DNA from: Bacteroidota bacterium
GTDB lineage: Bacteria; Bacteroidota; Ignavibacteria; OLB7
Direction: 5' to 3'
Assembly (NCBI GenBank): GCA_018266795.1
Contig: JAFDZV010000011.1
Location: 178,129-242,128 of the forward strand
DNA: 64,000 nt
The notes under the pieces are model-generated. The model ran no database searches, was not told where the DNA came from, and was given only the letters and a program-made list of their open reading frames with translations. Positions 29,107-64,000 of this stretch are shown piece after piece. Both the position numbers and the translations under genes were made by a program. Position 1 is the stretch's first letter. Every line of letters starts with the position of its first letter.

Positions 29107-29180
29107 TTGAGATACGAGATATGAAACAGGAGATATGAAATATGAATGGCTCATATCTCATCGTTCATATTTCATATCTG
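29107..29180. repeat. Family C heptad palindrome between DUF421 and subtilase genes
   Basis: AGATATGAAATATGAA (29131-29146) pairs exactly with TTCATATTTCATATCT (29164-29179), a 16-bp perfect stem. Additional GATATGA units extend it on the left. It abuts the subtilase stop at 29184. Confidence 0.9.
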
Positions 29181-45626: not shown

Positions 45627-45684
45627 AGATATGAACGATGAAACATGATATGAGCTGCGCCATTCATATTTCATATCTCGTCGC
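45627..45684. repeat. Family C heptad palindrome
   Basis: GAGATATGAACGATGAAACATGATATGAG on the left (split here: GAGATATGAA, CGATGAAACA) faces CATTCATATTTCATATCTCG on the right. It joins directly to the dedA fragment at 45685. Confidence 0.8.
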
Positions 45685-45753
45685 TCGCCAACGAGTTCTG
45701 CGTGAGGAACGGAAAGCCTCCGGAGGCAGCCCGGTTGCGGCCGTAGCGCCTGC
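45685..45753 (-). pseudogene. 69-bp displaced fragment of a dedA-like gene
   Basis: On the minus strand these 69 bases match the intact DedA gene at 48846-48914 at 62 positions, with no gap. The same reading frame gives RRYGRNRAASGG, then FPFLTQNSLAS, against RRYGRSWVASGR and FPFLTQNSLAK in the intact gene. The fragment ends in a family C heptad repeat, as does the 3' end of the intact gene. Confidence 0.8.
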
Positions 45754-45804
45754 GGGAAGAAACGCCGGAACGGCCATGCGGCTGCGGGCCGAACGGCACG
45801 GGGC

Positions 45805-48613: not shown

Positions 48614-49240
48614 ATGCCGACCCTCGAATCCATCGTGGAATGGCTCCGCAGTCTCCCGCCCGCGGGCCTCTATGCGGCGATATTCCTCACCAGCTACATC
48701 GAGAACATCTTCCCGCCGTCGCCAAGCGATGCCATCCTTCTCTTCATCGCGACGCTGATCGGCATCGGGACCATCGGCCATGTGGAGTCCATCCTGATCG
48801 CAACGGCCGGCAGCACGCTCGGGTTCATGACGGCGTTCATCCTCGGCAGGCGCTACGGCCGCAGCTGGGTTGCGTCCGGACGCTTTCCGTTCCTCACGCA
48901 GAATTCATTGGCGAAGGTGGATGGCTGGTTCGACAAGTACGGATACGGCGTCATCGTCGCGAACAGATTCCTTGCCGGCACACGCGCGGTGATCAGCTTC
49001 TTCGCCGGCATGTCCAACCTGGCGATGTTGCGCACCACGCTCCTCTGCACGCTCAGCGCGCTCGCCTGGAACACGATACTCATCGAGCTCGGCGCGTTCC
49101 TCGGAAAGAACTGGCGCGACGGCGAAGTGATCCTGGACCGCTACGGTCTGGTGGTCTCCATTCTGCTTGCGCTGGTGGGGATATACTTCCTGGTGCGATG
49201 GCTGATCAGGCGACGGAAGGGAACGGCGGAAAAGATATGA
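48614..49240 (+). CDS. DedA-family inner-membrane protein
   Basis: 208 residues. The DedA/SNARE-associated fold shows YIENIFPPSPSDAILLFIATL near the start, RRYGRSWVASGR, KYGYGVIVANRFLAGTRAVI (conserved F/Y-x-R-F-x-P/A-G-x-R motif) and several transmembrane segments, ending in a basic tail. Members are lipid flippases for undecaprenyl or phospholipid carriers and support membrane homeostasis. The stop codon TGA is contained in a family C heptad (GATATGAGATATGA). A 69-bp copy of residues about 78-101 lies at 45685-45753. Confidence 0.93.
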   Translation: MPTLESIVEWLRSLPPAGLYAAIFLTSYIENIFPPSPSDAILLFIATLIGIGTIGHVESILIATAGSTLGFMTAFILGRRYGRSWVASGRFPFLTQNSLAKVDGWFDKYGYGVIVANRFLAGTRAVISFFAGMSNLAMLRTTLLCTLSALAWNTILIELGAFLGKNWRDGEVILDRYGLVVSILLALVGIYFLVRWLIRRRKGTAEKI

Positions 49241-49250
49241 GATATGAACT
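49234..49250. repeat. Short family C heptad block at the dedA stop
   Basis: AAGATATGAGATATGAAC: two adjacent GATATGA-type units, the first of which supplies the dedA stop codon. Confidence 0.65.
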
Positions 49251-49434
49251 ATCCAGGTCGGCCAACAGCAATCATTGACTGATAACGAGCTTGATTTCGA
49301 GCGGATTTTGATGCTTTTCCGATAGCTGGCTGTCATTCGTTACCGTGCCCGCGACGGTTTTTGTTGCTCACGTGTTGCTGGAAACGAGTATCTTGCTCGT
49401 GCCAACGGACAATCAACCCAGATCCAGCAACACC

Positions 49435-50487
49435 ATGAGCGTAAAACTTCGCACCCGTTCTCTGCGCGACGGTCGCCAGAGTCTCTACCTCGACATCTAT
49501 CACAACGGTGCCCGGTACTACGAGTACCTTAACCTCTATCTCACCAAAGATAACAGGGGCGGCCATAACAAGGGGATCAAGGCGCTCGCCGAGAAGATCG
49601 CCGCCGACCGCCAGTTGAAGCTCGATCAGAACGACCACGGCTTCGCTGTTGAGAACCATCGCCGGACAAGCTTCATCGACTATTTCGAGGCGCAGGCCGC
49701 GCGGCGTGCCAGCGCAACGCGTGCATCCTGGACCTGCACGCTGAATGCCATCAAGGCATGCGCCGGTGAGCAGAACCTGACGTTTGCCCAGGTTACTCCG
49801 TCGTGGCTTGAAGGATTCAAGGCGTATCTGCTCGAACGATATGCCCGGGGCACCGCATACCTCCGCTACAACATGGTCAAGACCGCCTTGCGGCAGGCGG
49901 TGCACGATGAGATCATCACCTCCAGTCCGGCGACGAAGATCAAGGGAGTACGGAAGGCGGAGACACAGCGGGCCTACCTTGACGAAGGGGAACTTCGGAA
50001 GCTGGCCGCAACACCGTGCCGCCAGGCCGACGTCAAGCGTGCGTTCCTCTTCTCATGCGTGACGGGGCTTCGCATCTCCGATGTCCGCAAGCTGCGCTGG
50101 CGGAACATCACGGGTGACCGGATCGTGTTCTCGCAGAAGAAGACCGGGGGTGCGGAGTACATCGATCTGAGCGATGCGATTCGTTCGGTGCTCGGCGAGC
50201 GCGGCGAGCCTGATGCTCAGGTCTTCGAGCTTCCGGCCGGCACAACGATCGGCAATGTTCTTCGGACATGGTGTGCTGCAGCGGGTGTGACGAAGCACGT
50301 CACGTTTCACGTTGCGCGGCACACGTTCGCGACGCGGCTCCTGACACTGGGCGCGGATATCTACACGGTGAGCAAACTGCTTGGTCACACGACGCTTGCG
50401 CATACACAGGTCTATGCGAAGATCGTGGATCAGAAGAAGCGCGATGCCCTGAACCTGCTTCCGGTGCTGCCGTCCGGAAATTCATAG
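49435..50487 (+). CDS. Tyrosine site-specific integrase
   Basis: 350 residues from the ATG at 49435. The N-terminal arm-binding domain (SVKLRTRSLRDGRQSLYLDI) and SAM-like core-binding domain (about 75-170) precede the catalytic domain with R213 (GLRISDVRKL), Lys near 235, H292-x-x-R295 (FHVARHTFAT), H318 and nucleophile Y327 (LAHTQVYAKI). This architecture is typical of Bacteroidota integrative elements. It lies 195 bp after dedA, at the left edge of a block of mobile-element-type genes. The nearby att site could not be determined. Confidence 0.94.
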   Translation: MSVKLRTRSLRDGRQSLYLDIYHNGARYYEYLNLYLTKDNRGGHNKGIKALAEKIAADRQLKLDQNDHGFAVENHRRTSFIDYFEAQAARRASATRASWTCTLNAIKACAGEQNLTFAQVTPSWLEGFKAYLLERYARGTAYLRYNMVKTALRQAVHDEIITSSPATKIKGVRKAETQRAYLDEGELRKLAATPCRQADVKRAFLFSCVTGLRISDVRKLRWRNITGDRIVFSQKKTGGAEYIDLSDAIRSVLGERGEPDAQVFELPAGTTIGNVLRTWCAAAGVTKHVTFHVARHTFATRLLTLGADIYTVSKLLGHTTLAHTQVYAKIVDQKKRDALNLLPVLPSGNS

Positions 50488-50667
50488 GCGCCCGACTGGT
50501 TACGTTGATGGCCCGTCCGCATTGTGGGCGGGCCATCATTCCAAATGGTCCGCCGCTCTGCGCCGGCGCTGTCTCGCAATTGGCACCGGTTGATGGATTG
50601 CGCCGTTTTGTGCCTGCGCGTAACCTCCGCGTTCTTCCTTCCTTTCTCACATCAATCAACGACTGCG
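50488..50667. other. Spacer after the integrase
   Basis: 180 bp. ATGGCCCGTCCGC and GCGGGCCAT (50507-50535) form a hairpin just after the integrase stop (ATGGCCCG with CGGGCCAT), probably its terminator. Confidence 0.5.
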
Positions 50668-51366
50668 ATGGGACAACAGTACCGTCACTTCCGGCTGGCC
50701 AACATCACCCTTTCGAGTGAACGGGAGGCCGCATGGAACGAGTCAAACAGTACCGTGAGTAATCCGGTCTTTGACGCGCCATGGCTTCTCGCCGTTCCGG
50801 ACGAGTACGAGGAACGCCTGCGGGACCTCTACCACACGTCGCCGAACGCCCGCGATCGCTGGGAGATCCTTGAAGACTGGCTTCTCCATCTGCATACGGT
50901 GAAGACCGGGCTGGGCATGACGGAGCAGGAGTTGTACGCGCAGCGGGTCGAGGCATTGATTGCGGTCGCGCAGGCGGCGATTGACCGCGAGATGCGCCGT
51001 GCACGCTTCGAGGCCGATGAAGATGCCATTGCGTCCCGGACATCGGTGCCGAAGCTGCACATCAATGCGTGGAGCGATGATCTGACGCGGATCTTCGAGA
51101 CGTGCGTTGATATAGGGATGATATCCTCGACGGCCGAACCATCGAAGATCGTGGCAATGTTCACGACCGAACGGGTTGCAAAGGATCTTGCCGCGAACTA
51201 CCGCACGAGCCGCGACCGCATCAACGGCAGGCATCCGGTCACCCCGTCGATGACGCTGACGAAACTTGTCAAGGGACTCCTGGACCGGTTGTCGGCGGCG
51301 CGCATCGAGGAGATCATGGAGCACGCCGAGAAGGTGCTGGCCGTGCGCAGCAGATCACCACGATAG
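50668..51366 (+). CDS. Mobile-element protein of unknown function
   Basis: 232 residues from the ATG at 50668 (GQQYRHFRLANITLSSER). It is all-helical looking, with segments EILEDWLLHLHTVKTGLGMT and a C-terminal domain SDDLTRIFETCVDIGMISS...TKLVKGLLDRL that resembles the short C-terminal modules of Bacteroidota element proteins. No catalytic motif or membrane segment is visible. Position between the integrase and an excisionase-like HTH gene suggests an accessory or regulatory role. Confidence 0.65.
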   Translation: MGQQYRHFRLANITLSSEREAAWNESNSTVSNPVFDAPWLLAVPDEYEERLRDLYHTSPNARDRWEILEDWLLHLHTVKTGLGMTEQELYAQRVEALIAVAQAAIDREMRRARFEADEDAIASRTSVPKLHINAWSDDLTRIFETCVDIGMISSTAEPSKIVAMFTTERVAKDLAANYRTSRDRINGRHPVTPSMTLTKLVKGLLDRLSAARIEEIMEHAEKVLAVRSRSPR

Positions 51367-51702
51367 CCTTTGTCCGGGCACGGGCCTCGTTCCCCGCATG
51401 TAACGGCATGTGCCGGACCTGCCCGGTACCCTCTGCCTGCAACCACCCGCACGGCATCCACCGCAGCGTATCGGTATCAGCCACAGCCCTGCAATCACCG
51501 GCATTCGGGCAGAGAACGCGGCCGCTGATGACCGGCACGAGAACCAGCCGCCGCCACCGCTGATTGCATCCTTCGGCCAACCACAACCATCGCAAAAAAC
51601 AGTACGTACGGTTCATACTCTTTTTCGCGTCCCCGCCACACGAGCTTTGTTCCAGCCGCGCATGAACAGATCAATGAATGTTCGTTGTTGGAGAAACGCC
51701 CT
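51367..51702. other. Spacer upstream of the excisionase-like gene
   Basis: 336 bp without a supported gene. It is Pro/His-codon-like on one strand only by composition. An AT-rich stretch near 51595-51620 (TTCATACTCTTTTTCGC) is the likeliest promoter area for the genes that follow. Confidence 0.35.
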
Positions 51703-52284
51703 ATGGGAACACGTGAATTGCTGGAGAAGATCCTTGACGTTGTCAACCGTCTGGAACGGCTTGTCAGTGATCAGAAGGACCGTGTCGTTGATGCACGCAC
51801 CGCATGCAGGCTTACCGGCCTGTCGAAGGCGTCGCTGTACTCGAAGACCTGCTCCAAGAATGGAGAGCCGCCGTTGCTGCCACACTTCAAGACCGGTAAG
51901 CGGATCTACTTCCGGGAGTCGGATCTGGTGGCGTGGATGACCTCGCACCGTGTGAAGGATCGTGACGGGATTGAACGGGACGCAGAGGAGTATGTCCGGA
52001 CGCACCCGTCCAGAATCGACGGAATGCCGCGCGAGCGTTCGGGACGCACGGCCGCTCAACCGATACGCAACAATGCCTCCGTAAGAGGCAGCGATGCCCG
52101 CGCCAGAGGCAACGATGGACGCACTGAGTGGAGCGACCGGGCCGCAGGGCGAGACGGGTATCCGGGAGCCCGCGACGACCGGCGGGGATGGCCGGATGAT
52201 CGCCTGCCGTACGATGATGATCGTGGTGGCGATGATGATACCGGTGATGACGATGGAGCGTACGATGATGATGCGGAGGTCTAG
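51703..52284 (+). CDS. Excisionase-like helix-turn-helix protein with acidic/arginine tail
   Basis: 193 residues from the ATG at 51703, with GGAG nine bases upstream. After a short N-terminal coiled region (LLEKILDVVNRLERLVSDQK) comes a MerR/excisionase-type winged HTH: DARTACRLTGLSKASLYSKT, then PHFKTGKRIYFRESDLVAWM. The C-terminal 90 residues are Arg/Gly/Asp-rich and end in a long run of acidic residues, unusual for this family. It is probably a directionality factor or replication regulator of the element. The primase gene starts one base after its stop, so they are coupled. Confidence 0.82.
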   Translation: MGTRELLEKILDVVNRLERLVSDQKDRVVDARTACRLTGLSKASLYSKTCSKNGEPPLLPHFKTGKRIYFRESDLVAWMTSHRVKDRDGIERDAEEYVRTHPSRIDGMPRERSGRTAAQPIRNNASVRGSDARARGNDGRTEWSDRAAGRDGYPGARDDRRGWPDDRLPYDDDRGGDDDTGDDDGAYDDDAEV

Positions 52285-52285
52285 C

Positions 52286-55200
52286 ATGAAGGAGCGCAGC
52301 TACAACATTGAAGAGATCAAGCGGCGCCTTGACATGGTCTCCTACGCCGCCGCTCACTTCGGCGGCACACCGGAGCGCAGCGGAGCGGAAGTGCACCTTG
52401 TCGGCGCGAAGCTGGGAGGCTTCCGCATGAACACGGCGAAGGGAGTCTTCCGGCATGAGACCGAGGACGTTGGCGGCGATGTGCTGGACCTTGTCGGCTA
52501 CGTGCTGTTCGGCAAGGCATACTTCGCGAGCCGGTCGCGGTACTTCGCGGACGTGCTTGCCGAAGCCGGACGGTTGACGGACGTCGAGCCAGCCGAACGC
52601 GAGCGTCCTCACGGGCCTCAGCTCCCCGCGTCGCCGCGTGCCGCATCACCGGCCGGAGCAGTGAACGGAGCATCGAGCGGCATTGCGAACAGCCGGACTC
52701 CGGACCCTGGTGCTGCCGAACACGACGCAACTGCAACACCGGTACTGGAGAACGCACACGATGCTCTGGAAGCGGCCCCCTCTTCCAACGGTGCCGTGTG
52801 CAACGATGGAATGCCGGACAGCGACGCATCCGGACGGGACGCATGGGAGAATCAGGCACATGAGCGCGAGACTCGCGAGCTAGAGGCTCACAAGGGGGAG
52901 CCGCGCGAGCGGGAGCACCGTGAGCGGGAGCGGCGCGTGCTTGTCGCCGTCTACACCTATCGGGCGGCCGATGGATCATTCCTCTACGAAGCGCGCAAGT
53001 ACCGGCCGCGAGGCTACTCCTATCGCCGCTACGCGGCTGACCGCACCCCCATCCTCGGCATCGATGCCGACGACTACGTGCTGGCCAACGGCGTGTATGT
53101 CCGCACCTACGGACGTCCTGCCGGCGGCGCGCAACGCTTCGAGGCGTCGGACCGGGTGCTGTACCGCCTGCCGGAACTCCGGCGGGCGGTTGCCGGCGGC
53201 CACACCATCTTCCTCGTCGAGGGTGAGAAGGATGTCGAGACGCTTGCGGCACTCGGCATCCCGGCGACAACGAACCCGATGGGAGCGGGCAAGTGGCTCG
53301 ATCAGTTCTCCGCCGAACTCGCCGGGGCAGACGTGGTGGTCATTCCCGACAACGATGAACCGGGACGCCGCCATGCGGCCCGTGTCACGCGCAGCCTGAC
53401 CGGCGTTGCCGCCAGTGTCCGCGTGCTCGAACTGCCCGGACTTCCCCCGCGTGGTGACGTCACCGACTGGATCGAGAATGGCGGAACGGCGGATGAACTG
53501 CTGACCATGGCCGATGCCTCGGCCTACCCGGCGGAGGACCCGGCGCTGTACGATGACTACGCCGCCGTTGAGGATGTCACCGGGCCGGAGCCTGCGGGCG
53601 CCGATGCACACCAGCGCAACGAACGGAGCGCCTATCCTCTTCTGCCGCGTGACCCCTTCACCGATCTGAGCGAGGAGGATGAACGCGGGCTCGTGATTCC
53701 GGAGGATGTCTACGAGCATCTTCCCTCGATGCTGAAGGAACTGGCATCGTTCTTCGCACCCGGCTATGAACGGGACGTGTTCCTGACGGGCGCGCTTCCG
53801 GTGATCGGCGGTGCGGCGGTGAACACCGTCGGTGATCATGGCGACGGCCCCGGGCCGCTCGCGCTCTACACGGCGGTGGTGGCGCTGACCGGATCGGGCA
53901 AGGGGGTGCTCCATCATGCCTACAACCTGGGCCGCGCGATCAACCGGCGGCTTATCGAGCAATCGAAGGACGCCCGCGCCGACTGGCAGGCACGCGTCAA
54001 GAGCAAGGATGGTGACCCGGGACCGGAGCCACCGGAACGCTCGTTCTATCTGGCCGGGAACGCATCGAAGCGCGCGTTGATCGACAACCTTGCAGCGAAC
54101 AACGGTGTGGGGGTGATCTTCGAGACGGAGATCGTGACGATTGTCAACACAATCGGCCAGGAGTGGGGCGACGTCTACGACATCTTCCTGCGGGCGCTGC
54201 ATGGTGAGCCCCTTTCGATCAGCCGCAAGTCCGACGGGCGGATGTACGTGGAGAATCCGGCACTCTTCATCACGCTCTCCGGGACGCCGGCGGCGTTCGC
54301 CCGTCTGGTCCCGACAACGGAGGACGGACTGTTCAGCCGCTTTGCGCTCTATCGCTTCGAGAGCCACGCACAATGGGAGTCGAAGGAACCGGGCACACGG
54401 CACCGGCAGCGGACGGCGGCATTCGAGCAGGCAGCCGATCGGCTCGATCTGCTGCACCGGACGCTGACGCGCCGGAGTGATCCGCTGATCGTCGGCTGGA
54501 CGCACGAACAATGGAGCTGGCTCAACGAGACGTTCAGCACGGCGCTCGCGAACCTCGTGGCGTCGCGTGCGGACGTGACGCTGGAGGCAACGATAAAGCG
54601 TCTGGGGCTGATGGCCTTCCGGATCGGCTGCATCCTCTCGGCGCTCCGCGCCTTCGGTGATGATGTCAACATCGAGCGGGCGCGTTCGTTGACGGTGTAC
54701 GATGCGGATGCACGCACCGGGATCGTGCTCGCGATGCTCTACTATCGCCACGCACTCCGCTTTGCTGCAACGATGCCACGGGCGGGCGGTCCGCGCCTGC
54801 GGGGCCGGATCGTATCGTTCCTCGATACCCTTCCGGGCGGTGTATTCGGGCGTGCGGAGTACCGTGCGGCAGCGGAGCGGAACGGAATCAGCGAACGTTC
54901 GGCGCAGCGGTACCTGACGCGGCTCATGGCAAGCGGCATCGTTGCCGATCAGGGATACGGGCGGTATCGGAAGAATGCCCACGCACACCCCCACGCAACG
55001 GACTCCGGGCGCGATCACGATACGGATGAACCGGGGGCGGAGGAATCCAGGAGAAGCAATTCTGCCGGGACGCACGCTGCTGCGGCGGTGAACGATTCTC
55101 CGGCGGTGATGGCGCTTCACGGAGCCGTGAAATCAGATACGCCCGATGGCAAAGTGTCCAAGTGTCAAACCTCCCAGGAGGACGGGGTGAAGTTTGACCG

Positions 55201-55444
55201 TTTCGACAACTCGCCACCTGGTGCATCTGGTTTCAACGCCCCTCCCGATGCCTCGAACACTGGCGAACCTCGCCCGGAGGGTACGGAGATGCCTGCACAA
55301 CCACCATGGAACGCACGCGGGAGCGCTCCGCACCCGTACGATGATCCTGCAGGCCTCGGGGATGACGGCCGAAGCGCCACGGCGAGGAACAACGAAGAGA
55401 ACGGCAGCCGTGATGGTACACCGTTCGAGGAGTGGGAGCTGTGA
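52286..55444 (+). CDS. Toprim primase / DUF3987 helicase-like replication protein of the element
   Basis: 1052 residues. An N-terminal domain (1-100, GVFRHETEDVGGDVLDLVGY) resembles primase-type zinc-binding regions without the zinc residues. A low-complexity linker follows (110-220). The Toprim domain has IFLVEGEKD near residue 310 and VVIPDNDEPGRRHA near 353. The DUF3987 domain (about 470-800) contains the P-loop-like ALTGSGKG near 537 and FETEIVTIVNTIGQEWGD. A C-terminal winged helix is suggested by RAEYRAAAERNGISERSAQR near 860. Such proteins usually start DNA replication or act as primase-helicases on mobile elements. The next gene overlaps its stop (GTGA). Confidence 0.9.
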   Translation: MKERSYNIEEIKRRLDMVSYAAAHFGGTPERSGAEVHLVGAKLGGFRMNTAKGVFRHETEDVGGDVLDLVGYVLFGKAYFASRSRYFADVLAEAGRLTDVEPAERERPHGPQLPASPRAASPAGAVNGASSGIANSRTPDPGAAEHDATATPVLENAHDALEAAPSSNGAVCNDGMPDSDASGRDAWENQAHERETRELEAHKGEPREREHRERERRVLVAVYTYRAADGSFLYEARKYRPRGYSYRRYAADRTPILGIDADDYVLANGVYVRTYGRPAGGAQRFEASDRVLYRLPELRRAVAGGHTIFLVEGEKDVETLAALGIPATTNPMGAGKWLDQFSAELAGADVVVIPDNDEPGRRHAARVTRSLTGVAASVRVLELPGLPPRGDVTDWIENGGTADELLTMADASAYPAEDPALYDDYAAVEDVTGPEPAGADAHQRNERSAYPLLPRDPFTDLSEEDERGLVIPEDVYEHLPSMLKELASFFAPGYERDVFLTGALPVIGGAAVNTVGDHGDGPGPLALYTAVVALTGSGKGVLHHAYNLGRAINRRLIEQSKDARADWQARVKSKDGDPGPEPPERSFYLAGNASKRALIDNLAANNGVGVIFETEIVTIVNTIGQEWGDVYDIFLRALHGEPLSISRKSDGRMYVENPALFITLSGTPAAFARLVPTTEDGLFSRFALYRFESHAQWESKEPGTRHRQRTAAFEQAADRLDLLHRTLTRRSDPLIVGWTHEQWSWLNETFSTALANLVASRADVTLEATIKRLGLMAFRIGCILSALRAFGDDVNIERARSLTVYDADARTGIVLAMLYYRHALRFAATMPRAGGPRLRGRIVSFLDTLPGGVFGRAEYRAAAERNGISERSAQRYLTRLMASGIVADQGYGRYRKNAHAHPHATDSGRDHDTDEPGAEESRRSNSAGTHAAAAVNDSPAVMALHGAVKSDTPDGKVSKCQTSQEDGVKFDRFDNSPPGASGFNAPPDASNTGEPRPEGTEMPAQPPWNARGSAPHPYDDPAGLGDDGRSATARNNEENGSRDGTPFEEWEL

Positions 55445-55698
55445 CGTTCAGCGAACTCGTGAGCGAACTGGTGCGACGCGGCATCGTGTTCGACCGCCAT
55501 GCGGGCGATGCCGCCCCTACCGGCGGAAGGCTGAAGGCCACCGGGCCGCGCGGAGCAATGACTGGGGAACTCCGGCGGGAGATTCAGCGGCACCGCGAGA
55601 CGTTGATCGCGTTTCTCGGTCCCTCACGCCTTCCGGAGACTCCGCCGGAGCCTGAAGGAGCCCGATCGCGACGCGGTACGGGAAAACCGGGTACGTAA
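55441..55698 (+). CDS. TubC-docking-like small protein
   Basis: 85 residues from a GTG whose GTGA overlaps the primase stop. The sequence VTFSELVSELVRRGIVFDRH, then LKATGPRGAMTGELRREIQ and HRETLIAFL, follows the TubC N-terminal docking domain pattern (a small helical/beta fold normally at the ends of NRPS/PKS proteins). Stand-alone copies also occur in mobile elements. Its coupling to the primase suggests it docks or pairs with that protein (inference). A disordered Pro/Arg tail follows. Confidence 0.72.
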   Translation: MTFSELVSELVRRGIVFDRHAGDAAPTGGRLKATGPRGAMTGELRREIQRHRETLIAFLGPSRLPETPPEPEGARSRRGTGKPGT

Positions 55699-55991
55699 CC
55701 AGCCGTTTGTACGTGCTGAAGCGGGAATGAACTGGTGAAATTCATTGAAATCCGGCGATTCGATACGGCATTGAGCGGGGTCGGCCGGAGGAGAGGGATT
55801 TCAGGCTGCGCCAATTCACCCCTCAACCAGCACCGGATGAGGAAGATTTCTACACCAATTCAACACCATGGGTACGCAGATCGAGCACCAAGGGAGTGCC
55901 GCATCTCCACCACATGAACGGAGAGTGGTCTCTGAAGGCGCGTGCTCAGGTGGCATCCATGGACACCGTAACTGGACAGGAAGAATCAGGA
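55699..55991. other. Spacer before the small HTH-like gene
   Basis: 293 bp; open frames here are short and unsupported. AGGAAG at 55978-55983 is the ribosome-binding site of the next gene. Confidence 0.4.
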
Positions 55992-56354
55992 ATGGAACGC
56001 ATGCGACGGAATGAGAAGCAAGACACCCCGCGCCAGGCACGCGCGGCCACGCTGCTGAACGTGCGCGGGCGCGACCTCCTCTACGTCCGCGAGGAGGCGG
56101 GATACTCCCGCGCCAGGCTCTCGCAGCGCATGAGGAGGGATGATGACCATGACGCGATACCATCGAGCCCGAACACCCTGCTGCGCTACGAGAGCACGAT
56201 CGGGGAAGTGAAGCCGCTGGTGGCGGCGGCCTATCGCCGGGCGATCGGCGAGGAACTGTTTGATGCTCTGCTGGAACGGCTGCGACTACGCGAGGAGGAG
56301 TACCGGAAGGAGCACGAGCGGCTGTACGCGCAGTCGCAGCGGAGCAGGCAGTAA
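55992..56354 (+). CDS. Small basic protein with a possible HTH
   Basis: 120 residues from the ATG at 55992, with AGGAAG eight bases upstream. The core RGRDLLYVREEAGYSRARLS, then SPNTLLRYESTIGEVKP, has the rhythm of an XRE/Cro-like HTH (two helices around YSRARLSQRM, then the NTLLRYE helix that reads DNA). The C-terminus is a charged helix (LRLREEEYRKEHERLYAQ). It lies between the primase and two unknown element genes and is probably an element regulator. Confidence 0.62.
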   Translation: MERMRRNEKQDTPRQARAATLLNVRGRDLLYVREEAGYSRARLSQRMRRDDDHDAIPSSPNTLLRYESTIGEVKPLVAAAYRRAIGEELFDALLERLRLREEEYRKEHERLYAQSQRSRQ

Positions 56355-56403
56355 GCCGGCGGAAAGGACCTCAACAATCACTGACAGGCAAGGAGCAATG
56401 CAT

Positions 56404-57039
56404 ATGACCGTGACAAGAATGGCGAAGCGGAACATGCGGGAGTGGTACCGGCGGCTGCGGCAATACTGCGCAAGCCGTCTGCATGTCGCCAATGCGCTCG
56501 ATGATATCGCCGAGGCAATCACCGGCGCTCCGCGCATCCGAAGGCAGGAGAAGAGCACCGTAATGCTGTGCTCCGTCCGGGACCTCCAGAGTGATCAGGA
56601 GATCCGGGAGCGCTGGCACATGAACCCGGATCGGTACCGGGGCATGATGTTTGCCTCGGCGTTGAACGATCTGAAGCGGGCGGCGATCACCTACGGGCAC
56701 ACACAGAACCGGCTGCTGGATGCAACCCTTCGGCAGGATATCGGGCTCATGGTGGAGATCGAAGTGACCCCGGGAGTGCCATGGCACATCCTGGAGTGGC
56801 TGCGGACCCGGAAGCCATCACTGAAGGAGATGATCCGGGAGATCGAGGAGGAGATACAGGCGGCGCTGGAACTGCTGCAGGCCGTCGGAGTGCATACCGA
56901 ACGCACCATCGCCCTGCGCGACCAGCTTGCGGAGTGCCTCACCCTGATCGCGTGCGAGGTGGCGTATGCCCGCCTCGTTCTCGACCGGGATGATTTCGAG
57001 AACGAACCAGATTTCAGGGATGAGTACGATGAGAAGTAA
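56404..57039 (+). CDS. Element protein of unknown function
   Basis: 211 residues from the ATG at 56404, chosen because AAGGAG lies eight bases upstream. It is helical and charged, with segments MREWYRRLRQYCASRLHVAN and MIREIEEEIQAALELLQAVG that look like coiled coils. No motif is recognised. Its last codons overlap the start of the next gene by 11 bases, so the pair is translationally coupled. Confidence 0.65.
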   Translation: MTVTRMAKRNMREWYRRLRQYCASRLHVANALDDIAEAITGAPRIRRQEKSTVMLCSVRDLQSDQEIRERWHMNPDRYRGMMFASALNDLKRAAITYGHTQNRLLDATLRQDIGLMVEIEVTPGVPWHILEWLRTRKPSLKEMIREIEEEIQAALELLQAVGVHTERTIALRDQLAECLTLIACEVAYARLVLDRDDFENEPDFRDEYDEK

Positions 57040-57628
57040 CGAACAGGATGCGGCCGCGAGCGCGGCCGCTCGTATTCTCGGAGAATTCGACCGATGCATG
57101 GCCGGTCTTCGCGAGACGGCGCGGGCGGTGCTGACTCCACTGCACGCCTTCCTTGCAGCAGATCTTCCCATGCGCACGGCGCTGAAGGAGGCCATCCGGT
57201 CACAAAGCACGAGTGACCGGGAGTATCTGAAGGCGGCCGACGCGACCTTCGCGGCGGCGCTTCGCGAGCCGCTCACGACCCTGCTCGACGCGATCACCGA
57301 ACACGAACCGGCATTCCTGCGATCGTGTGGTGCCGTGCTCGACTGCTATGACGGGTTGTGGAGCGAGCGGCGCCCGGTGGGTGCGCTCGCCGGGCTCCGG
57401 AAGGCGGAACTGCTGAACCGGGGCAAGGCCATCCGCACGGTGCTGCGGAACGTTGAGCAGATCCCGGGAGTGGTGCTCCGGTCCCTCGGCCTGCCGAAGT
57501 CTCCAGGCCATCCGGTGCCGCCCTGCATTGCGGTGGTCTACACGGTACTCTGTGGTTTGCGTGGTGAGATCACCCGGGCACGCTCACGGCTGCGGGCGAC
57601 CATGGACCGCACATTCGCGGCACGATGA
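57029..57628 (+). CDS. Element protein of unknown function
   Basis: 199 residues from the ATG at 57029, which overlaps the previous stop and has AGGG nine bases upstream. The protein is Ala/Arg/Leu-rich and helical throughout (SAAARILGEFDRCMAGLRET, LRKAELLNRGKAIRTVLRNV). No family is recognised. It is the last gene of the plus-strand element block; a strong bidirectional terminator follows at 57657-57696. Confidence 0.65.
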   Translation: MRSNEQDAAASAAARILGEFDRCMAGLRETARAVLTPLHAFLAADLPMRTALKEAIRSQSTSDREYLKAADATFAAALREPLTTLLDAITEHEPAFLRSCGAVLDCYDGLWSERRPVGALAGLRKAELLNRGKAIRTVLRNVEQIPGVVLRSLGLPKSPGHPVPPCIAVVYTVLCGLRGEITRARSRLRATMDRTFAAR

Positions 57629-57656
57629 ATCTTTACGACACGCCCGGATGCAACGA

Positions 57657-57696
57657 ACAACGCCGGTGTGATCGCTTCCGATCGCACCGGCGTTGT
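57657..57696. terminator. Bidirectional terminator after the element genes
   Basis: An 18-bp stem with one G-T wobble: left arm 57657-57674, right arm 57679-57696, loop CTTC. It lies between convergent genes. Confidence 0.85.
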
Positions 57697-57781
57697 CATA
57701 TTCTGCTCTGCCGCATTCCACGACGTTGCGTTCCGGGCCATGGCGTTCCGCATCAGGACGTTCTTCTCTGCCCATCCGCCG

Positions 57782-57982
57782 TCAGCGCTTCCCCTCCTCA
57801 TCGATCGGCTCCGCGCCATTATTTGCATTCATCCCCGAACGTCGCGCAAGGATACGTCCGGCGGTCTTCAGTGCCGCTTCATTCGCCAGCGCCTCGCCCG
57901 CGTCAATCGCGGCAAGGAGCGTGCGCGCTTCCTCACCCGTGACCGGCTTGTCTGTCCGTTGCTCTGGTGTTGGATACTGCAT
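57782..57982 (-). CDS. Small acidic protein of unknown function
   Basis: 66 residues (QYPTPEQRTDKPVTGEEART, then LLAAIDAGEALANEAALKTA). It is a helical, charged small protein without a recognised family. It is 47 bp downstream of the next gene on the same strand and probably shares its transcript; the terminator at 57657-57696 follows. Confidence 0.5.
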   Translation of the reverse strand: MQYPTPEQRTDKPVTGEEARTLLAAIDAGEALANEAALKTAGRILARRSGMNANNGAEPIDEEGKR

Positions 57983-58029
57983 GGGTTCGCTTCGTTCAAA
58001 CAGTGCTCGTTGAACCGTCCGGCGGCCCC

Positions 58030-58338
58030 TCAGTTACTGGCCGCTTCATCCTCCTCACGATGCTGCCGCAGCTTCATTGCGATCTCCTCCGGCGTGCCGA
58101 TCAACACCACCCACGACCGTTCATCTCGGCGCGTGGTCAGTGTATCGAATGTTCCGCACACCGTCTCAAAGGCATGAACATACATGCGGTATAGGTGATT
58201 GCGGGGAGGACCCGATTGCGCCAGCTCCATCCGGCACTCCGCGACGGCCTTGTCGGCGATCTCCTGAATCTCGTCGCCGGTGAGCAATGTGCGGGCGGTT
58301 CCGCTGACAACCAGTTCAATGTCGTTCGACTGGGACAT
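58030..58338 (-). CDS. Small protein of unknown function
   Basis: 102 residues. Mixed alpha/beta pattern: IELVVSGTARTLLTGDEIQE, a middle HLYRMYVHAFETVCGTFDTL, and an end SWVVLIGTPEEIAMKLRQH. No signal peptide or known motif. First gene of a likely two-gene minus-strand unit with 57782-57982. Confidence 0.55.
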   Translation of the reverse strand: MSQSNDIELVVSGTARTLLTGDEIQEIADKAVAECRMELAQSGPPRNHLYRMYVHAFETVCGTFDTLTTRRDERSWVVLIGTPEEIAMKLRQHREEDEAASN

Positions 58339-58460
58339 GCTGCATCTCGGTAACGTTCATGGGGGAATGGTGAACGCCGGGGAGCACAAGATCGTAACGG
58401 CTGTGCACACCACCAACGTCGGTGGCTGTTCGATTGATGAGCGGATCATGGATCGGTGTA

Positions 58461-58740
58461 CTACCGCACGACCAGGAACTTCCCGTTCGTTTCGGTAACG
58501 CCGTCATCGATGCGATAGATATACATGCCCATCGGAAGTGCCGCAACACTGATGCAGACCACCTCCATCCCCGACGAAACGTCACGGTCCACTTGTGGTG
58601 CCACACAGTTGCCGGTTGGATCGTAGAGCCGTATTCGTACATGCCGTCCCGGCGATGCTGTAAGCCTGATTTCCACGATGCCGGTGGCAGGATCGGGACC
58701 GCGCGAGAGAATGTACCTCTGCCAGTTGCATCATCACGAT
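58461..58740 (-). pseudogene. Orphan T9SS C-terminal sorting-domain fragment
   Basis: The open frame (stop codons at 58741 and 58461) encodes only a sorting-domain-like tail: RGPDPATGIVEIRL, then HVRIRLYDPTGNCV, ending YIYRIDDG...GKFLVVR, like the end of a secreted T9SS protein. There is no N-terminal domain, signal peptide or clear start. It is probably the remnant of a deleted or rearranged gene. An intact T9SS gene starts 120 bp away on the opposite strand. Confidence 0.65.
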
Positions 58741-58859
58741 CAGCTCTAACAATTCACCACCTGTCGGGTTACACGTGCAGAGCTGCATATCCATGTCGTT
58801 GATCCACATCGATTGCGTCATCGCTCCCATACCGTACGCTTCAATCAACCACACGATCG

Positions 58860-61562
58860 ATGCTTCATTCGCGGGACTTCCGGATTCGCACCGAACGCCG
58901 TATCAGTCATCTCACAGCTATCCTCTGGGTTGTTGCCTCGTATTCGTTGCTGGCACAACCGGCGGACGTGAAACTCAGCATCGAACCACGTCAGCCATTC
59001 TGTCCACGCGAGGCACGCATCCAGGCGGCTGCAGGCACGCACGGTATAACGCTCGTTGCCTGGGGAAGCAGCGCTAGCGATGGCGACACCATCCGCCCCG
59101 TGCTGTATGTCCAGATTGTGCGCGATACCATCCCGCAGGGAATGCCAGCGCTTCTTACCACACCTGATGCGCGACCTTCAGGATATGTTGCTGTCGTTCC
59201 GCTGCGGGATCGCTTCGTCGTTGTCTGGCAGGACGAGCGCGAACCGGGCGGAGTGCTCTACTGCCGCACGGTGGACACGACCGGACGTCTTGGTGCCTAC
59301 GAGGAATTCCTCGATACGGCGCTCACGATTCCGCCGGGCGTTACAGCCATTACGACCACCACCGGCTACAGGCTGATCTGGCCGACACGTCGTGCAGATG
59401 CAAGAGCGCATGCGCGCGATCTCGATTCGATGGGCCATGTTCGCGGAACTGCATTTGCGACGATGCTTCACAACGTCCTTCGCATTGTGCCGCTCGCCGC
59501 GCATCCGGGCACGGCGATCGCAGACTGCGGCCGCGACGGCCTGATAGTTCTTGACAGTACCGGAGGAATCAGGGATACCATCGAGACATTCAACAGGGTT
59601 ATCTCGATTCGCGATGATGGGGCAATGCTGGAATGCCATGGCAGCCTGGTCCGCATGTATGCCTCGCCGATCGACAGCGTTGCAATCCGTGTGCTGCGAC
59701 AACCGCCGCCGATACAACCGGGACACCAGGGCACCGTTGCCATGTGGGACTCCTCGGCTCATGCGAGGATCTTCGACCTGCGGCATGTCGCACGCCAGAA
59801 TTTCTTTGGTGAAAGCGAGATTGGCGTTGAGGTTACTGCCGTCGTTGAAACCAGTCTCGATACGTTCAAGGATCTGGGGGTGATTGTCTTTGCCTTGGAA
59901 ATGCAGTTGCCACACGGGTTCCTCGGAGATTTCTCGCTTGGCGATCCAACGCTGACCCGTCCCTGTGCTGAAGTCATCAGGTTCGCACTGCCGGTGAAGC
60001 TGGAGTCGCAGAATCCGGACGACCCGGCACATACGGTTCATTCATCGCAGAGCGTGAACACAATCTATCTGGGACCGAACGGTGTGGTTCAGAACGCCGA
60101 GTGTTCCGGCGTCGCTGCGCAATCACCCGCTGTCCGCCGCTTGGAAAATCCTCTGTATAGTGAAGTCATGCTTGGGCAGGGAGCACCCGTTGTTCATCTG
60201 AAAGCGCCTCTGGGAATGGCGCGTGTCAATGTCCCGCAAACCTCGCCGGTCATTGCACAGGAGGGGAACGAACTCCTTGTTGGCTGGACGTCGCAGGGGA
60301 TCGACTCTGTTGCCGCTCTTGGCCGATGGACTGTCTCCGGTGCATCGCGCTGCGATATGGTCGATGCCTACCATGCATCACAGGATGGTTCGGACTCCGC
60401 GCCTGCGCCCCATCACACCCTGTTCACTACAACCTATGGCGGGGGTACTTGTGCTCTGTTGACTGCTGCGGCGGTTTCCGGGGAGCAGGTGGCTCAGGTT
60501 ATTCGCGGAACGGCGCAGGGCTGGCGCAGCGTGCAGGTGGTGGAAACGCCGACTTCCGCAGTGCCTGGGGAGCCTGTGTTGACCGGGTCCGGCCTGCAGC
60601 GAGATCCCAATACCGGAACGCTCGTTTCGGCCATCGGATTGACAGGTCAATCCGGCGCTCCGGAGGACCGGCAGTACCGTACTCTCTGGCTCGCAGGTCT
60701 GGATGCGTCAGGCAACCGTTCATGGGTGATCGACAGCATGACGATTCTTCCCGGATTGTATGTCTCCGCCATCCCTTGTGCCGATCACAGTTTTGCAGCA
60801 GGCTCCTCGAGCGACGCGACACGCTACAACGACACGGCGCGAACCAGCAGTCGCCATATCGCCGACTGGAGCGAGCCAGCACGTTATCGGAGGCTTCTCG
60901 GACCATGGTTGTTGCGATGGATAACCACCGGCAATGAACTCTACGTTGCTCGCTACGACACGGTGCTTGCCGATGCCGGGTCCGTGCATATTCCGTTGCC
61001 GGGTGCCGTGACGAATGTGAATGTGGATGATGCAACAGTAGTACAGAACCCACGGGACTCCGGATTTGCGTTCGTCACCGCGGGCACCAGCGGTGTCTGG
61101 GTGTGCACATTCGACCGGGAGTTACGGCTGTTGCGTGACAGCATTCCGGTCAGTCTGTATCGCGGGCCGACTGCGCGACCGGCCGGTGTGATCCGGAACG
61201 ATACGCTCTTCGTTGTCTGGGAGGATTACCGGAACAATCAGGCCGATATCTACGGAGCCATGATTCCGCTTCACAGGAGAACCGGCAGCATCGCGACCGA
61301 ATCGTTGAATACCGATAACGCCAATACGGCGACTGTGTTCCCGAACCCTGCGAACGATGTTGCGACGCTACGATTCTCCCATCCATTGCTGCACCCGGCA
61401 ACCCTTCGGCTTGTAGACCTGCTGGGTCGGGTTGTGATGGAGATTTCATCCGACGCAGGCACGTCCGTTGTCAGCATCACGACCGGGGAGCTTTCCACCG
61501 GCCAGTATCTCGTCATCGGAGGGAGCAGCGGTCCCGTAGCCCGGCTGTTCGTTGCACATTGA
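58860..61562 (+). CDS. Large secreted protein with T9SS sorting tail
   Basis: 900 residues with signal peptide HLTAILWVVASYSLLAQ. The body is beta-rich with repeated Trp/Asp motifs (FVVVWQDEREPGGVLYC, DTLFVVWEDYRNNQADIYG) typical of propeller-like extracellular domains. The last 85 residues form a T9SS sorting domain (FPNPANDVATLRFSH to RLFVAH). Surface location is likely; function unknown. It lies within the element region but has no coupling to the replication genes. A terminator follows at 61585-61622. Confidence 0.85.
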   Translation: MLHSRDFRIRTERRISHLTAILWVVASYSLLAQPADVKLSIEPRQPFCPREARIQAAAGTHGITLVAWGSSASDGDTIRPVLYVQIVRDTIPQGMPALLTTPDARPSGYVAVVPLRDRFVVVWQDEREPGGVLYCRTVDTTGRLGAYEEFLDTALTIPPGVTAITTTTGYRLIWPTRRADARAHARDLDSMGHVRGTAFATMLHNVLRIVPLAAHPGTAIADCGRDGLIVLDSTGGIRDTIETFNRVISIRDDGAMLECHGSLVRMYASPIDSVAIRVLRQPPPIQPGHQGTVAMWDSSAHARIFDLRHVARQNFFGESEIGVEVTAVVETSLDTFKDLGVIVFALEMQLPHGFLGDFSLGDPTLTRPCAEVIRFALPVKLESQNPDDPAHTVHSSQSVNTIYLGPNGVVQNAECSGVAAQSPAVRRLENPLYSEVMLGQGAPVVHLKAPLGMARVNVPQTSPVIAQEGNELLVGWTSQGIDSVAALGRWTVSGASRCDMVDAYHASQDGSDSAPAPHHTLFTTTYGGGTCALLTAAAVSGEQVAQVIRGTAQGWRSVQVVETPTSAVPGEPVLTGSGLQRDPNTGTLVSAIGLTGQSGAPEDRQYRTLWLAGLDASGNRSWVIDSMTILPGLYVSAIPCADHSFAAGSSSDATRYNDTARTSSRHIADWSEPARYRRLLGPWLLRWITTGNELYVARYDTVLADAGSVHIPLPGAVTNVNVDDATVVQNPRDSGFAFVTAGTSGVWVCTFDRELRLLRDSIPVSLYRGPTARPAGVIRNDTLFVVWEDYRNNQADIYGAMIPLHRRTGSIATESLNTDNANTATVFPNPANDVATLRFSHPLLHPATLRLVDLLGRVVMEISSDAGTSVVSITTGELSTGQYLVIGGSSGPVARLFVAH

Positions 61563-61584
61563 TCGAAGAGGTTGCCGCAGAACA

Positions 61585-61622
61585 AGAACGGGTACTCCCG
61601 CAACCGCAGGAGTACCCGTTCT
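61585..61622. terminator. Terminator after the T9SS gene, usable in both directions
   Basis: A perfect 14-bp stem: AGAACGGGTACTCC (61585-61598) with GGAGTACCCGTTCT (61609-61622), 10-nt loop. The neighbouring genes are convergent. Confidence 0.88.
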
Positions 61623-61660
61623 GTCTGTCTGAACGATGGCAGCCTGAAGCGCGGGAATCG

Positions 61661-61924
61661 TCAGCCGGCCGTCCGGTTGTCCGGCTCGGGGCTTCCCGAC
61701 ACCACAAGAATGATATCCTCCCCAAGCGTCATGTGGCCGCCTGCACGCGAGCGTGCGGCCACGCTCGCATACTCCGGGCGCTTGCGGAGGGTGAACTCGC
61801 AAGCGATGTCGTAGTCGATGATCCCCACCTGTACGCAGAGTTGCGCCAGGCCGCTCGCGAACCGCCGGAGTTTCTGTGTCGGTATCGGCAGTTCATCACG
61901 CCGTGTGTTGCGTTGAAGTTGCAT
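61661..61924 (-). CDS. Small protein of unknown function
   Basis: 87 residues from the ATG at 61924, eight bases after the stop of the upstream gene, with a G-run as ribosome-binding site. Sequence features: basic start (QLQRNTRRDELPIPTQKL), a helical middle and an end SGSPEPDNRTAG. No family recognised. Second gene of a two-gene unit. Confidence 0.55.
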   Translation of the reverse strand: MQLQRNTRRDELPIPTQKLRRFASGLAQLCVQVGIIDYDIACEFTLRKRPEYASVAARSRAGGHMTLGEDIILVVSGSPEPDNRTAG

Positions 61925-61932
61925 GGCGCCCC

Positions 61933-62244
61933 CTACAATGCCGGCCGGTGCCACACCGAACGATCCGATGCCGGGGCATTGAATGCCGAAGCATCGAATG
62001 ATGTGCGTTGAAGCAGCCGTGCGTTGTTGAGAGTGTGGTAGAGACGGAAGAATGCCGCGACGGTCCCAAAGGTGATAATGGTGACTTCAATCCCCTCTGG
62101 CACTTCGTCGGTGATGATGGTCAGCCCGGCTTCAATCAGCCCGTAGAGGGCCGCGAGAGATTCGTCCAGTTGCTGGACAACCGAGAAGGGCACGAAGACG
62201 CCGGGCATCGGCACGAAGGCCATGGCGCTGGATTCCGCTGTCAT
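61933..62244 (-). CDS. Small partly hydrophobic protein of unknown function
   Basis: 103 residues from the ATG at 62244 (a start 12 codons earlier is possible). It has hydrophobic stretches (MAFVPMPGVFVPFSVVQQL, IEVTIITFGTVAAFFRLYH) that could form one or two membrane helices. No motif is recognised. It is coupled to the 61661-61924 gene. A 12-bp inverted repeat with a 45-base gap lies at 62257-62325 just upstream. Confidence 0.55.
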   Translation of the reverse strand: MTAESSAMAFVPMPGVFVPFSVVQQLDESLAALYGLIEAGLTIITDEVPEGIEVTIITFGTVAAFFRLYHTLNNARLLQRTSFDASAFNAPASDRSVWHRPAL

Positions 62245-62572
62245 GTTTCTTGCAGAAAATGCCGGGAGGTGCAAGCGCACATGACTGCGCCCCGCGCCTT
62301 ACGGACATCGGGACTCCCGGCATTTGTTTGTCGAAGAACAGACACCCGTGTTACGGCACGGGTTCCGGTCATGTGGCTTGCGCAAGCAATATAGCCACGT
62401 GCCGGGAATAACGGCGATAGCCTGAAATGCCTATTTAGATAGAGTTTCAGGCTATTCGAGGGCGCAATTTGTGCCAAAGCGGCAATCGGGGTTTCCCGGC
62501 CAGCCCGCGCTGCAATCCGGAGATCCGGCACGAACATACATGCCTGCGAGCGTTCCCAGAGACTTCTCCGGT
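62245..62572. other. Region between hsdR and the small-gene pair, with inverted repeats
   Basis: 328 bp. AAATGCCGGGAG (62257-62268) pairs with CTCCCGGCATTT (62314-62325). ATAGCCTGAAA (62417-62427) pairs with TTTCAGGCTAT (62445-62455). The second is AT-richer with an inner CTAT/ATAG stem and likely ends the hsdR transcript; the first, followed by T's on the minus strand, could be a second terminator or leader element. Confidence 0.55.
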
Positions 62573-64000
62573 TCAGCCCGCCGTGCCGGGCGGACGCTGC
62601 GAACCGTACGTGAGACGGAACACCGTGTCGGCGAACCACCGCCGGAACGACTCGTTGTCGCTGAACTGTTTGAAGAGTTCTGTGTCCTCCTTCATGCCGT
62701 CGATCATCACCCGCAGCAGCGCCTTGTCCAACTCGATGCGCGCGTTCTGCATGTCAGAGTTCTGCTTGGCGTTCTGATAGGCGGTATCGAGATTCACCTT
62801 CGCCGGAATGTCCACAAACAGACGTTGCTGCAGACGGTCATGGTCACCCCATTGGATGTTGCCGAACTGCTGATTGAAGGTTGAGAGAATATTCGAGAGC
62901 CGGTCAAGCTCCGGCTCCGGTGCATGGCCATCGCCGGCAACAGGAACCGGATCGATCTCCGCATCGGCATCGGGCAGTTCCACCGCGACCGTCGCCTGCT
63001 TCTCCACACGGTAGCTGTCCATATCGATCGCCTCCAGAATCCCGCGCGACAAGTCCTCCTCTACGGGCGCCGGCAGTTTCGGCACGAGGAAGTTCAGGAA
63101 GATGGAAAGCTTCTCCCAGCCCGCGTTCGTGTAGGGGAGAATGGAAGCAAGGAAGCCATAGGCTCGCAGAAACGCCTTTGCCTTTCCCTTGAAACTCACC
63201 TGGCCATCCTCATCCAACTGTTCCAGGTACACCGCAACACATCCGTCGAGAATCGGATCAAGCCGGTCGCGGTCCGCACCGCCCAGGTACAGCTCCACGA
63301 ACCGGCCGATCTCCGATTCGCTGTAGACCTCGTGGCCGTCCAGCGCCGCCTTCAGATCGTGCAACATGTTCGGGTCCGTCTCCGCGCTCAGGATCGTTGT
63401 CCGATAGTAGTCGGCGAAGGACTTCTCGATCACGTCCGCGCTGTTCATGAAGTCCAGTACGAACACGTCGTGCTTCTTCGGATGCGCGCGGTTCAGGCGT
63501 GATAGCGTCTGCACCGCCTTGATGCCGGAGAGCATCTTGTCCACGTACATCGTATGCAGCAACGGTTCATCGTAGCCGGTCTGGAACTTGTCCGCGCAGA
63601 TCAGGAAGCGGTACGGGTCCTCCTGAATCCTCTCCGCGATCGCGCCGGATGCGAAGCCGTTCAGCGACGCCTCGGTAACCGGCACGCCGCCATATTCGTG
63701 CTCGCCGGAAAAGGCCACGATTGCCCGATACGGGCTCTTGCGCTCGGTGAGGTAATCGCGGATAGCATGATAGTACTGCACCGCCCGCTCGATGCCGCTC
63801 GTCACCACCATCGCGCGTGCCTCGCCGCCGACCTTCCGAACCGCCAGCACCTGCTCGTGGAAGTGATCCACCATGATCTCCGCCTTCAACCGGATCGCGT
63901 GGTCGTGGCTCTCCACATAGCGGCGCAGCTTCTTCCGCGCGCGCTTCGTGTCGAACTCGGGATCGTCCTCGATCCTCTTGATCAACCGGTAGTAGCTCTC
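62573..64000 (-). CDS. hsdR: Type I restriction enzyme R subunit (HsdR), C-terminal part
   Basis: The 5' end is beyond the window; at least 475 codons remain. The helicase C-terminal lobe is visible: VVTSGIERAVQYYHAI, ICADKFQTGYDEPLLHTMYVD and the motif VI region LSRLNRAHPKKHDVFVLDFM. The C-terminal half is the coupling/specificity-binding domain. HsdR cuts unmethylated DNA after ATP-driven translocation, together with HsdM and HsdS. Neither partner gene lies in the window, so they should lie upstream (to the right). Probably cargo of the integrated element, but its boundary is unknown. Confidence 0.93.
   Translation of the reverse strand, partial: ESYYRLIKRIEDDPEFDTKRARKKLRRYVESHDHAIRLKAEIMVDHFHEQVLAVRKVGGEARAMVVTSGIERAVQYYHAIRDYLTERKSPYRAIVAFSGEHEYGGVPVTEASLNGFASGAIAERIQEDPYRFLICADKFQTGYDEPLLHTMYVDKMLSGIKAVQTLSRLNRAHPKKHDVFVLDFMNSADVIEKSFADYYRTTILSAETDPNMLHDLKAALDGHEVYSESEIGRFVELYLGGADRDRLDPILDGCVAVYLEQLDEDGQVSFKGKAKAFLRAYGFLASILPYTNAGWEKLSIFLNFLVPKLPAPVEEDLSRGILEAIDMDSYRVEKQATVAVELPDADAEIDPVPVAGDGHAPEPELDRLSNILSTFNQQFGNIQWGDHDRLQQRLFVDIPAKVNLDTAYQNAKQNSDMQNARIELDKALLRVMIDGMKEDTELFKQFSDNESFRRWFADTVFRLTYGSQRPPGTAG

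Follow-up and report, generated by a model that had tools for sequence, protein, structure and literature searches.

A probable integrative element with a PICMI-like core and no detected relaxase between dedA and a HEAT/transglutaminase-like gene in an Ignavibacteria genome

Here we describe a block of genes that begins directly behind dedA in a 64,000-nt window (G000:C2:178129-242128) of an Ignavibacteria genome assembled to 5.97 Mb in 71 contigs; coordinates are those of the window unless a locus is named, and contig C2 itself stops 6.3 kb past the window end, at window coordinate 70288. Comparison with relatives gives good support to the block having been inserted between dedA and a HEAT/transglutaminase-like gene and being foreign to the core chromosome. 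We read it, with somewhat more conviction than doubt, as a relaxase-less integrative element whose core resembles that of the PICMI phage satellites of Vibrionaceae and which probably depends on a helper. Its integrase, excisionase-type and primase genes are a usual set among elements that ride on phages or plasmids. An initial annotation of the window had proposed an integrated element, mobilisable or satellite-like, with defence cargo. Its integrated nature is borne out on three counts: two relatives have an empty site, none of the relatives checked carries the block, and relatives sharing its gene order within the class (Ignavibacteria / Candidatus Kapaibacterium, as at loci L070 and L123) have boundary repeats at tRNA genes.

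The left chromosomal flank is dedA (48614..49240, + strand), 57-63% identical to the dedA of four genomes compared at this locus: one of the same genus (G001), one of the same family (G002) and two further family genomes (G003 and G004). Sua5 and rpmB near dedA are conserved in the relatives too, and the M28 peptidase neighbour is conserved in G001 only. In G001 dedA and the HEAT/transglutaminase-like gene overlap or abut (0 bp), and in G002 they stand 83 bp apart, with a LOG-family gene next in both, so that the empty site which the initial annotation proposed to look for after dedA does exist. In the host, the HEAT gene is found on a different contig, C57, at 1.2 kb from the contig end, which puts the dedA-HEAT distance at a minimum of 21 kb (21.0 on C2) plus 1.2 kb (C57). 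The site is variable. In G004 the gap is filled by some 6 kb of other genes, encoding secreted proteins and sigma factors, and the genes beside dedA in G003 belong to the same set; loci L023 and L024 show this arrangement in a different genus within the family. None of the four relatives carries the block downstream of dedA or DUF3987 anywhere, and the integrase has no close relative in the family genomes.

The left boundary falls within a few bases of 49250, straight after the dedA stop codon; mobile genes do run rightwards from the integrase at 49.4 kb, as initially annotated, but the element itself starts earlier. Its junction region (49241..49434) opens with the host intergenic repeat AGATATGAGATATGAA and then passes into element sequence. 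Dispersed AGATATGAGATATGAA-like repeats, inverted copies included, occur at several gene ends (29117-29180, 45627-45680, 49233-49248). The 16-bp AGATATGAGATATGAA, present both at the dedA end and on the far flank, was considered as an att site and rejected: the genome holds six copies, and those at the flanks are inverted. An 84-bp piece close to where the M28 peptidase gene ends (45685-45767, - strand), adjoining host GATATGAA-type repeats, shares 86% identity with an internal segment of dedA (48831-48914); it is either a stray fragment of a gene or a portion of some dispersed repeat. On the far flank (L048:14340-14946), an intact XRE-type helix-turn-helix (HTH) gene stands beside a stretch that looks, by eye, like a degenerate XRE gene; the two likely mark the other end of the insertion. 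The right end of the element lies beyond the assembled part of C2.

The core of the element is a + strand operon, 8.4 kb long and ending near 57,630. It opens with a tyrosine integrase of Bacteroidota type (49435..50487; Pfam Phage_integrase, PF00589, 3e-22, with SAM_5 and Arm-DNA-bind_5), in which the catalytic R-H-R-H-Y residues are present by reading. A 234-amino-acid (aa) open reading frame (ORF) without known relatives, or ORFan, follows (50662..51366) in the position of iolg/icg in PICMI; it has no match in Pfam, PHROG or PADLOC and no relative among viral contigs. Next comes an HTH_17 protein of AlpA/excisionase type (51700..52284; PF12728, 6.6e-7, above cut-off) with a low-complexity acidic tail, which also matches phrog_66, "excisionase and transcriptional regulator" (8.7e-7); a tRNA-Val predicted by ARAGORN at 52025-52113 lies within this reading frame and is probably spurious. 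The central gene encodes a 1052-aa primase-helicase (52286..55444; DUF3987, PF13148, 1.5e-45; PHROG DNA primase, 2e-24, over the TOPRIM region), built of an N-terminus that appears CHC2-like and degenerate by eye, a TOPRIM domain at ~286-420, a DUF3987 ATPase at 495-826 and a winged-helix-like C-terminal region. It keeps the TOPRIM motifs VEGEKD and DNDEPGR and the DUF3987 Walker A motif GSGKG.

Next, and sharing 13 bases with the primase gene, is the gene of an 88-aa TubC_N-like protein (55432..55698; PF18563, 8.4e-9), followed by a 152-aa HTH-like protein (55896..56354) in the same position as a small HTH gene of the class relatives, whose HTH family it matches by hhalign with an E of 0.0016 at a probability of only 16%. 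Two overlapping ORFans complete the series, a helical one of 213 aa (56398..57039), absent from the 390 other class genomes, and one of 220 aa (56966..57628) with no Pfam, PHROG or PADLOC match; a hairpin with a 16-bp stem (57659..57694), read from the sequence, closes the operon. These matches, together with those of HsdR below, uphold the identities initially given to the integrase, the excisionase-type HTH, Toprim/DUF3987, TubC-like and HsdR proteins. Codon use offers weak evidence that the four core ORFs at 50662-51366, 55896-56354, 56398-57039 and 56966-57628 are real genes: their codon scores are 0.10-0.15 (mean of the training genes, 0.11), and some reverse-frame ORFs score equally high. 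AlphaFold2 models of two of the ORFans, the 213-aa one among them, were not usable (pLDDT ~40), and an Rfam search gave no match.

The same core recurs across the class. DUF3987 was found in 20 of 391 class genomes, and in neighbourhoods of up to 20 kb around the matches, read for gene order, ten loci show the co-oriented series int, ORFan, HTH_17, (small gene), DUF3987: that of the host, L060, L123/L261, L255, L256, L257, L258, L267, L270 and L271. No ORF is resolved between int and HTH_17 in L255, L257 and L258, and several further class loci have a partial int/HTH_17/DUF3987 series. In L256 (genome G070; L256:3971-9693), perfect 20-bp direct repeats lie 5,703 bp apart at a tRNA-Leu gene, and the island between them contains int, a 357-aa ORF, an HTH_17 protein of 97 aa, ORFs of 69 and 100 aa, a DUF3987 protein of 501 aa and nothing else. 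Since its repeats enclose only the int-to-DUF3987 genes, this minimal core is an integrating unit by itself, without mobilisation or structural genes, and L256 is a good model for the minimal element. At L060 (G046), related sequence is found at the 3' end of a tRNA-Arg gene and 13.6 kb away, with 12 bp exact; the two ends share 57% identity across 90 bp, whereas none of 5000 random pairs exceeded 41%. The class also holds a second kind of DUF3987 element (L263, L265, L268, L269, L272), with two integrases, a ~380-aa protein upstream of a short DUF3987 protein (~455 aa) and a tRNA-Thr gene nearby.

Single-sequence scans with the primase gave no match in genome and viral collections. An aligned primase query retrieved 160 loci, among which, at the sensitivity used, TOPRIM and DUF3987 share one ORF only in class relatives; five of the other loci, which were checked, have D5_N/DUF5906, DUF927 or AAA_25. 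Phage and plasmid collections yielded partial matches only, at below 60% identity.

Downstream of the core, extension to the right uncovered a complete type I restriction system, including the hsdM and hsdS genes that the initial annotation had suggested seeking. On the - strand, hsdR (62573..64000, running on to 65590; HSDR_N, SWI2_SNF2; PADLOC REase_I, 2.6e-45) is joined outside the window by hsdS (65587-67146; Specificity_I, 8.5e-117), a GIY-YIG/DUF4357 gene (67086-67958; PDC-S14, 2.3e-99) and hsdM (67955-69937; MTase_I, 6e-243), after which the contig ends. The system lies in the same insertion, 5 kb past the core, and we infer that the two belong to one element. In many class relatives, defence genes, often type I restriction systems, lie within 10 kb after the same core. 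Near DUF3987, PADLOC reports type I restriction genes at the host locus, L260, L262, L266, L270 and L271, to which L262 adds Avs2 and L270 a PDC-S06 candidate. Its other matches are, at L259, a type IIG enzyme; at L061, an AriA/Old-like ATPase with PDC-S73; and, at L254, a C5 methyltransferase, with a Vsr-like gene there read by eye. Defence genes were thus recognised at nine or more of the ~17 core-type loci, a plain tally over the neighbours scanned and not an enrichment test. In L262 (L262:2263-7575), the Avs2 homologue (1565 aa, PADLOC E=0) has DUF3987 and a small HTH gene immediately on one side and an hsdR fragment on the other.

It is nevertheless a serious possibility, which we place somewhat below an even chance, that the mobile element comprises only the core from 49.25 to ~57.7 kb and that the genes beyond it reached the dedA-HEAT site as separate insertions, an arrangement compatible with our reading of the core itself. 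GC content drops from 62.9% before 57.64 kb, equal to that of the host, to 59-60% after it, at the hairpin that closes the operon. Between core and restriction genes stands a 900-aa secreted protein with a sorting domain for the type IX secretion system (T9SS) (58860..61562, + strand; PF18962, 2.7e-7), either cargo or a host gene, which belongs to a multi-copy host family with many paralogues at ~27-36% in the family genomes; furthermore, G004 has an unrelated 6-kb secreted-protein set in the same interval. Around this gene, all on the - strand, are ORFs of 66 aa (57782..57982; codon score 0.18) and 102 aa (58030..58338; codon score 0.16) without a Pfam match, a lone T9SS C-terminal sorting tail lacking its protein (58461..58676), probably a gene remnant, and an ORF of 115 aa (61933..62280) with no family above cut-off. 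Against separate insertions speaks the recurrence of defence genes after the same core in so many relatives. The initial proposal of defence cargo is supported in so far as a complete system lies near the core and defence genes come after the core in many relatives; with the right end off the contig, the union of core and system in a single element is putative.

For the relaxase-less element with a PICMI-like core, domain content and the genetics of PICMI together suggest a mode of life. The integrase would recombine the element in and out of the chromosome, aided by the HTH_17 protein in an AlpA/Xis role and probably also by the product of the int-adjacent ORF. After excision, the TOPRIM-DUF3987 primase-helicase would copy the circle; transfer would rely on a helper, most likely a phage that packages the element, and the nearby type I restriction system with its GIY-YIG/DUF4357 partner may shield the host from competing phages. 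We prefer transfer by a helper phage in view of the absence of both structural and relaxase genes, and because defence cargo fits competition among phages. Domain searches (Pfam, PHROG) of the assembled part of the element found no phage structural match above noise (capsid, terminase, tail) and no relaxase or conjugation gene, in agreement with the initial annotation, which had seen neither structural nor conjugation genes. The satellite-like character first suspected proved a good lead in that the gene order matches that of PICMI satellites, while the role of helper and packaging is something that we infer.

Several observations weigh against this reading. The insertion adjoins neither a tRNA gene nor fis, its flank being dedA, and no flanking att repeat was found within C2 or between C2 and C57: a search for repeats of at least 13 bp shared by the dedA/integrase region (48.2-49.6 kb) and 50.5-70.3 kb was negative, and the direct repeats expected to match 49241-49434 did not appear. 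The right end is off the contig. The ORF next to int (50662..51366) has no detectable homology to the int-adjacent ORFs of the relatives, a host-type secreted protein separates the core from the restriction genes, and no helper phage is known. Finally, a tyrosine integrase, an excisionase-type HTH and a primase family protein are equally the stock of NBU/MTn-type mobilisable transposons.

Elements without a relaxase of their own are known in general, and the element could be an integrative mobilisable one that has just an origin of transfer (oriT) and moves by means of a conjugative element's relaxase and mating pore. Mobilisable transposons of Prevotella likewise carry integrase, excisionase-type and primase genes; they mostly encode a relaxase (PMC4755523), however, and we regard this alternative as unlikely. 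Pfam Relaxase (PF03432) is absent from the host assembly and 18 others (19/19 DUF3987-bearing genomes), so that no conjugative helper is visible either; the control for this search was positive in one genome only, and other relaxase types are possible. Mob_Pre was not found in the DUF3987-bearing genomes in a search in which no control genome gave a match. The mobilisable half of the initial annotation thus gained no relaxase in its support.

Equally improbable, in our estimate, is that the block is a stranded island past excision, its integrase, HTH and primase genes being decaying remnants. The missing att repeats, the stray T9SS tail and the degenerate XRE-like stretch at the far flank would agree with decay, but the core genes are all open and codon-consistent, and their active-site motifs are kept. 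That the block is simply a core chromosome segment, which its host-like GC might suggest, is refuted by the relatives' dedA loci, 4/4 of which in the family lack the block, the opposite of the synteny in all relatives named at the outset as the outcome that would tell against an integrated element, and by the scarcity of DUF3987 within the class.

Beyond this one locus, the relaxase-less element with its PICMI-like core may be one of a set of PICMI-like satellites that form an undescribed, widespread group across the Ignavibacteria/Kapaibacteria class, a proposal we make tentatively and with more doubt than confidence. Such satellites would lack a relaxase, measure 5.7 kb at their smallest, with int, a fast-evolving ORF, HTH_17 and a DUF3987 primase-helicase, form larger islands with swappable anti-phage cargo and be spread by phages. 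The presence of an int-ORF-AlpA-DUF3987 module, with att repeats in relatives, in a distant and mostly uncultured class suggests a widely used hitch-hiker core, by which restriction systems, Avs2, type IIG enzymes and other defences may be carried.

Like NBU1, whose integration site is a tRNA gene's 3' end, the class relatives L060 and L256 are inserted at tRNA genes. The host element differs from NBU-type transposons in having no relaxase in its assembled part and no tRNA gene at its site. In mobile-element primases, DUF3987 is the module predicted to act as helicase, and it is found fused to primases of the AEP family (PMC5862659); L254 has such a Prim-Pol plus DUF3987 form, whereas the primase half of the host protein is TOPRIM and not AEP. 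Type I systems with an inserted GIY-YIG/DUF4357 gene are a recognised kind (PADLOC PDC-S14), and with hsdM, GIY-YIG/DUF4357, hsdS and hsdR all present, the one found here has nothing unusual about it.

The closest comparison is with PICMI. The prototype, PICMI115, spans 6,110 bp between 17-bp repeats and has six genes including int, iolg, alpA and prim; int, iolg and alpA are required for excision, iolg overlaps or is contiguous with int, the primase is of DUF3987 or DUF5906 type, and accessory genes include defence genes (PMC10803314). The published detection model takes PF05930 or PF12728 as alpA and PF13148 or PF19263 as prim; complete PICMIs were found by its authors only in Vibrio, always at fis, which they call a hallmark, and 68 of 135 matches to a looser model fell outside Vibrionaceae, with incomplete PICMI-like variants outside Vibrio (PMC10803314). 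The host element likewise has int, an unknown int-adjacent gene, AlpA (PF12728), a DUF3987-type primase and then accessory or defence genes, with no structural genes. It differs in lacking a fis neighbour, in its bacterial class, in the TOPRIM domain of its primase, in its extra HTH-like and TubC_N genes, and in having a large restriction system as its nearby defence. Where PICMIs measure ~6-7 kb between short direct repeats, the host core is 8.4 kb long with no repeat found; L256 fits this size and matches in gene number as well. By gene content the host element carries three of the four PICMI markers (integrase, AlpA and primase), and we call it PICMI-like rather than PICMI because its flank is dedA and not fis.

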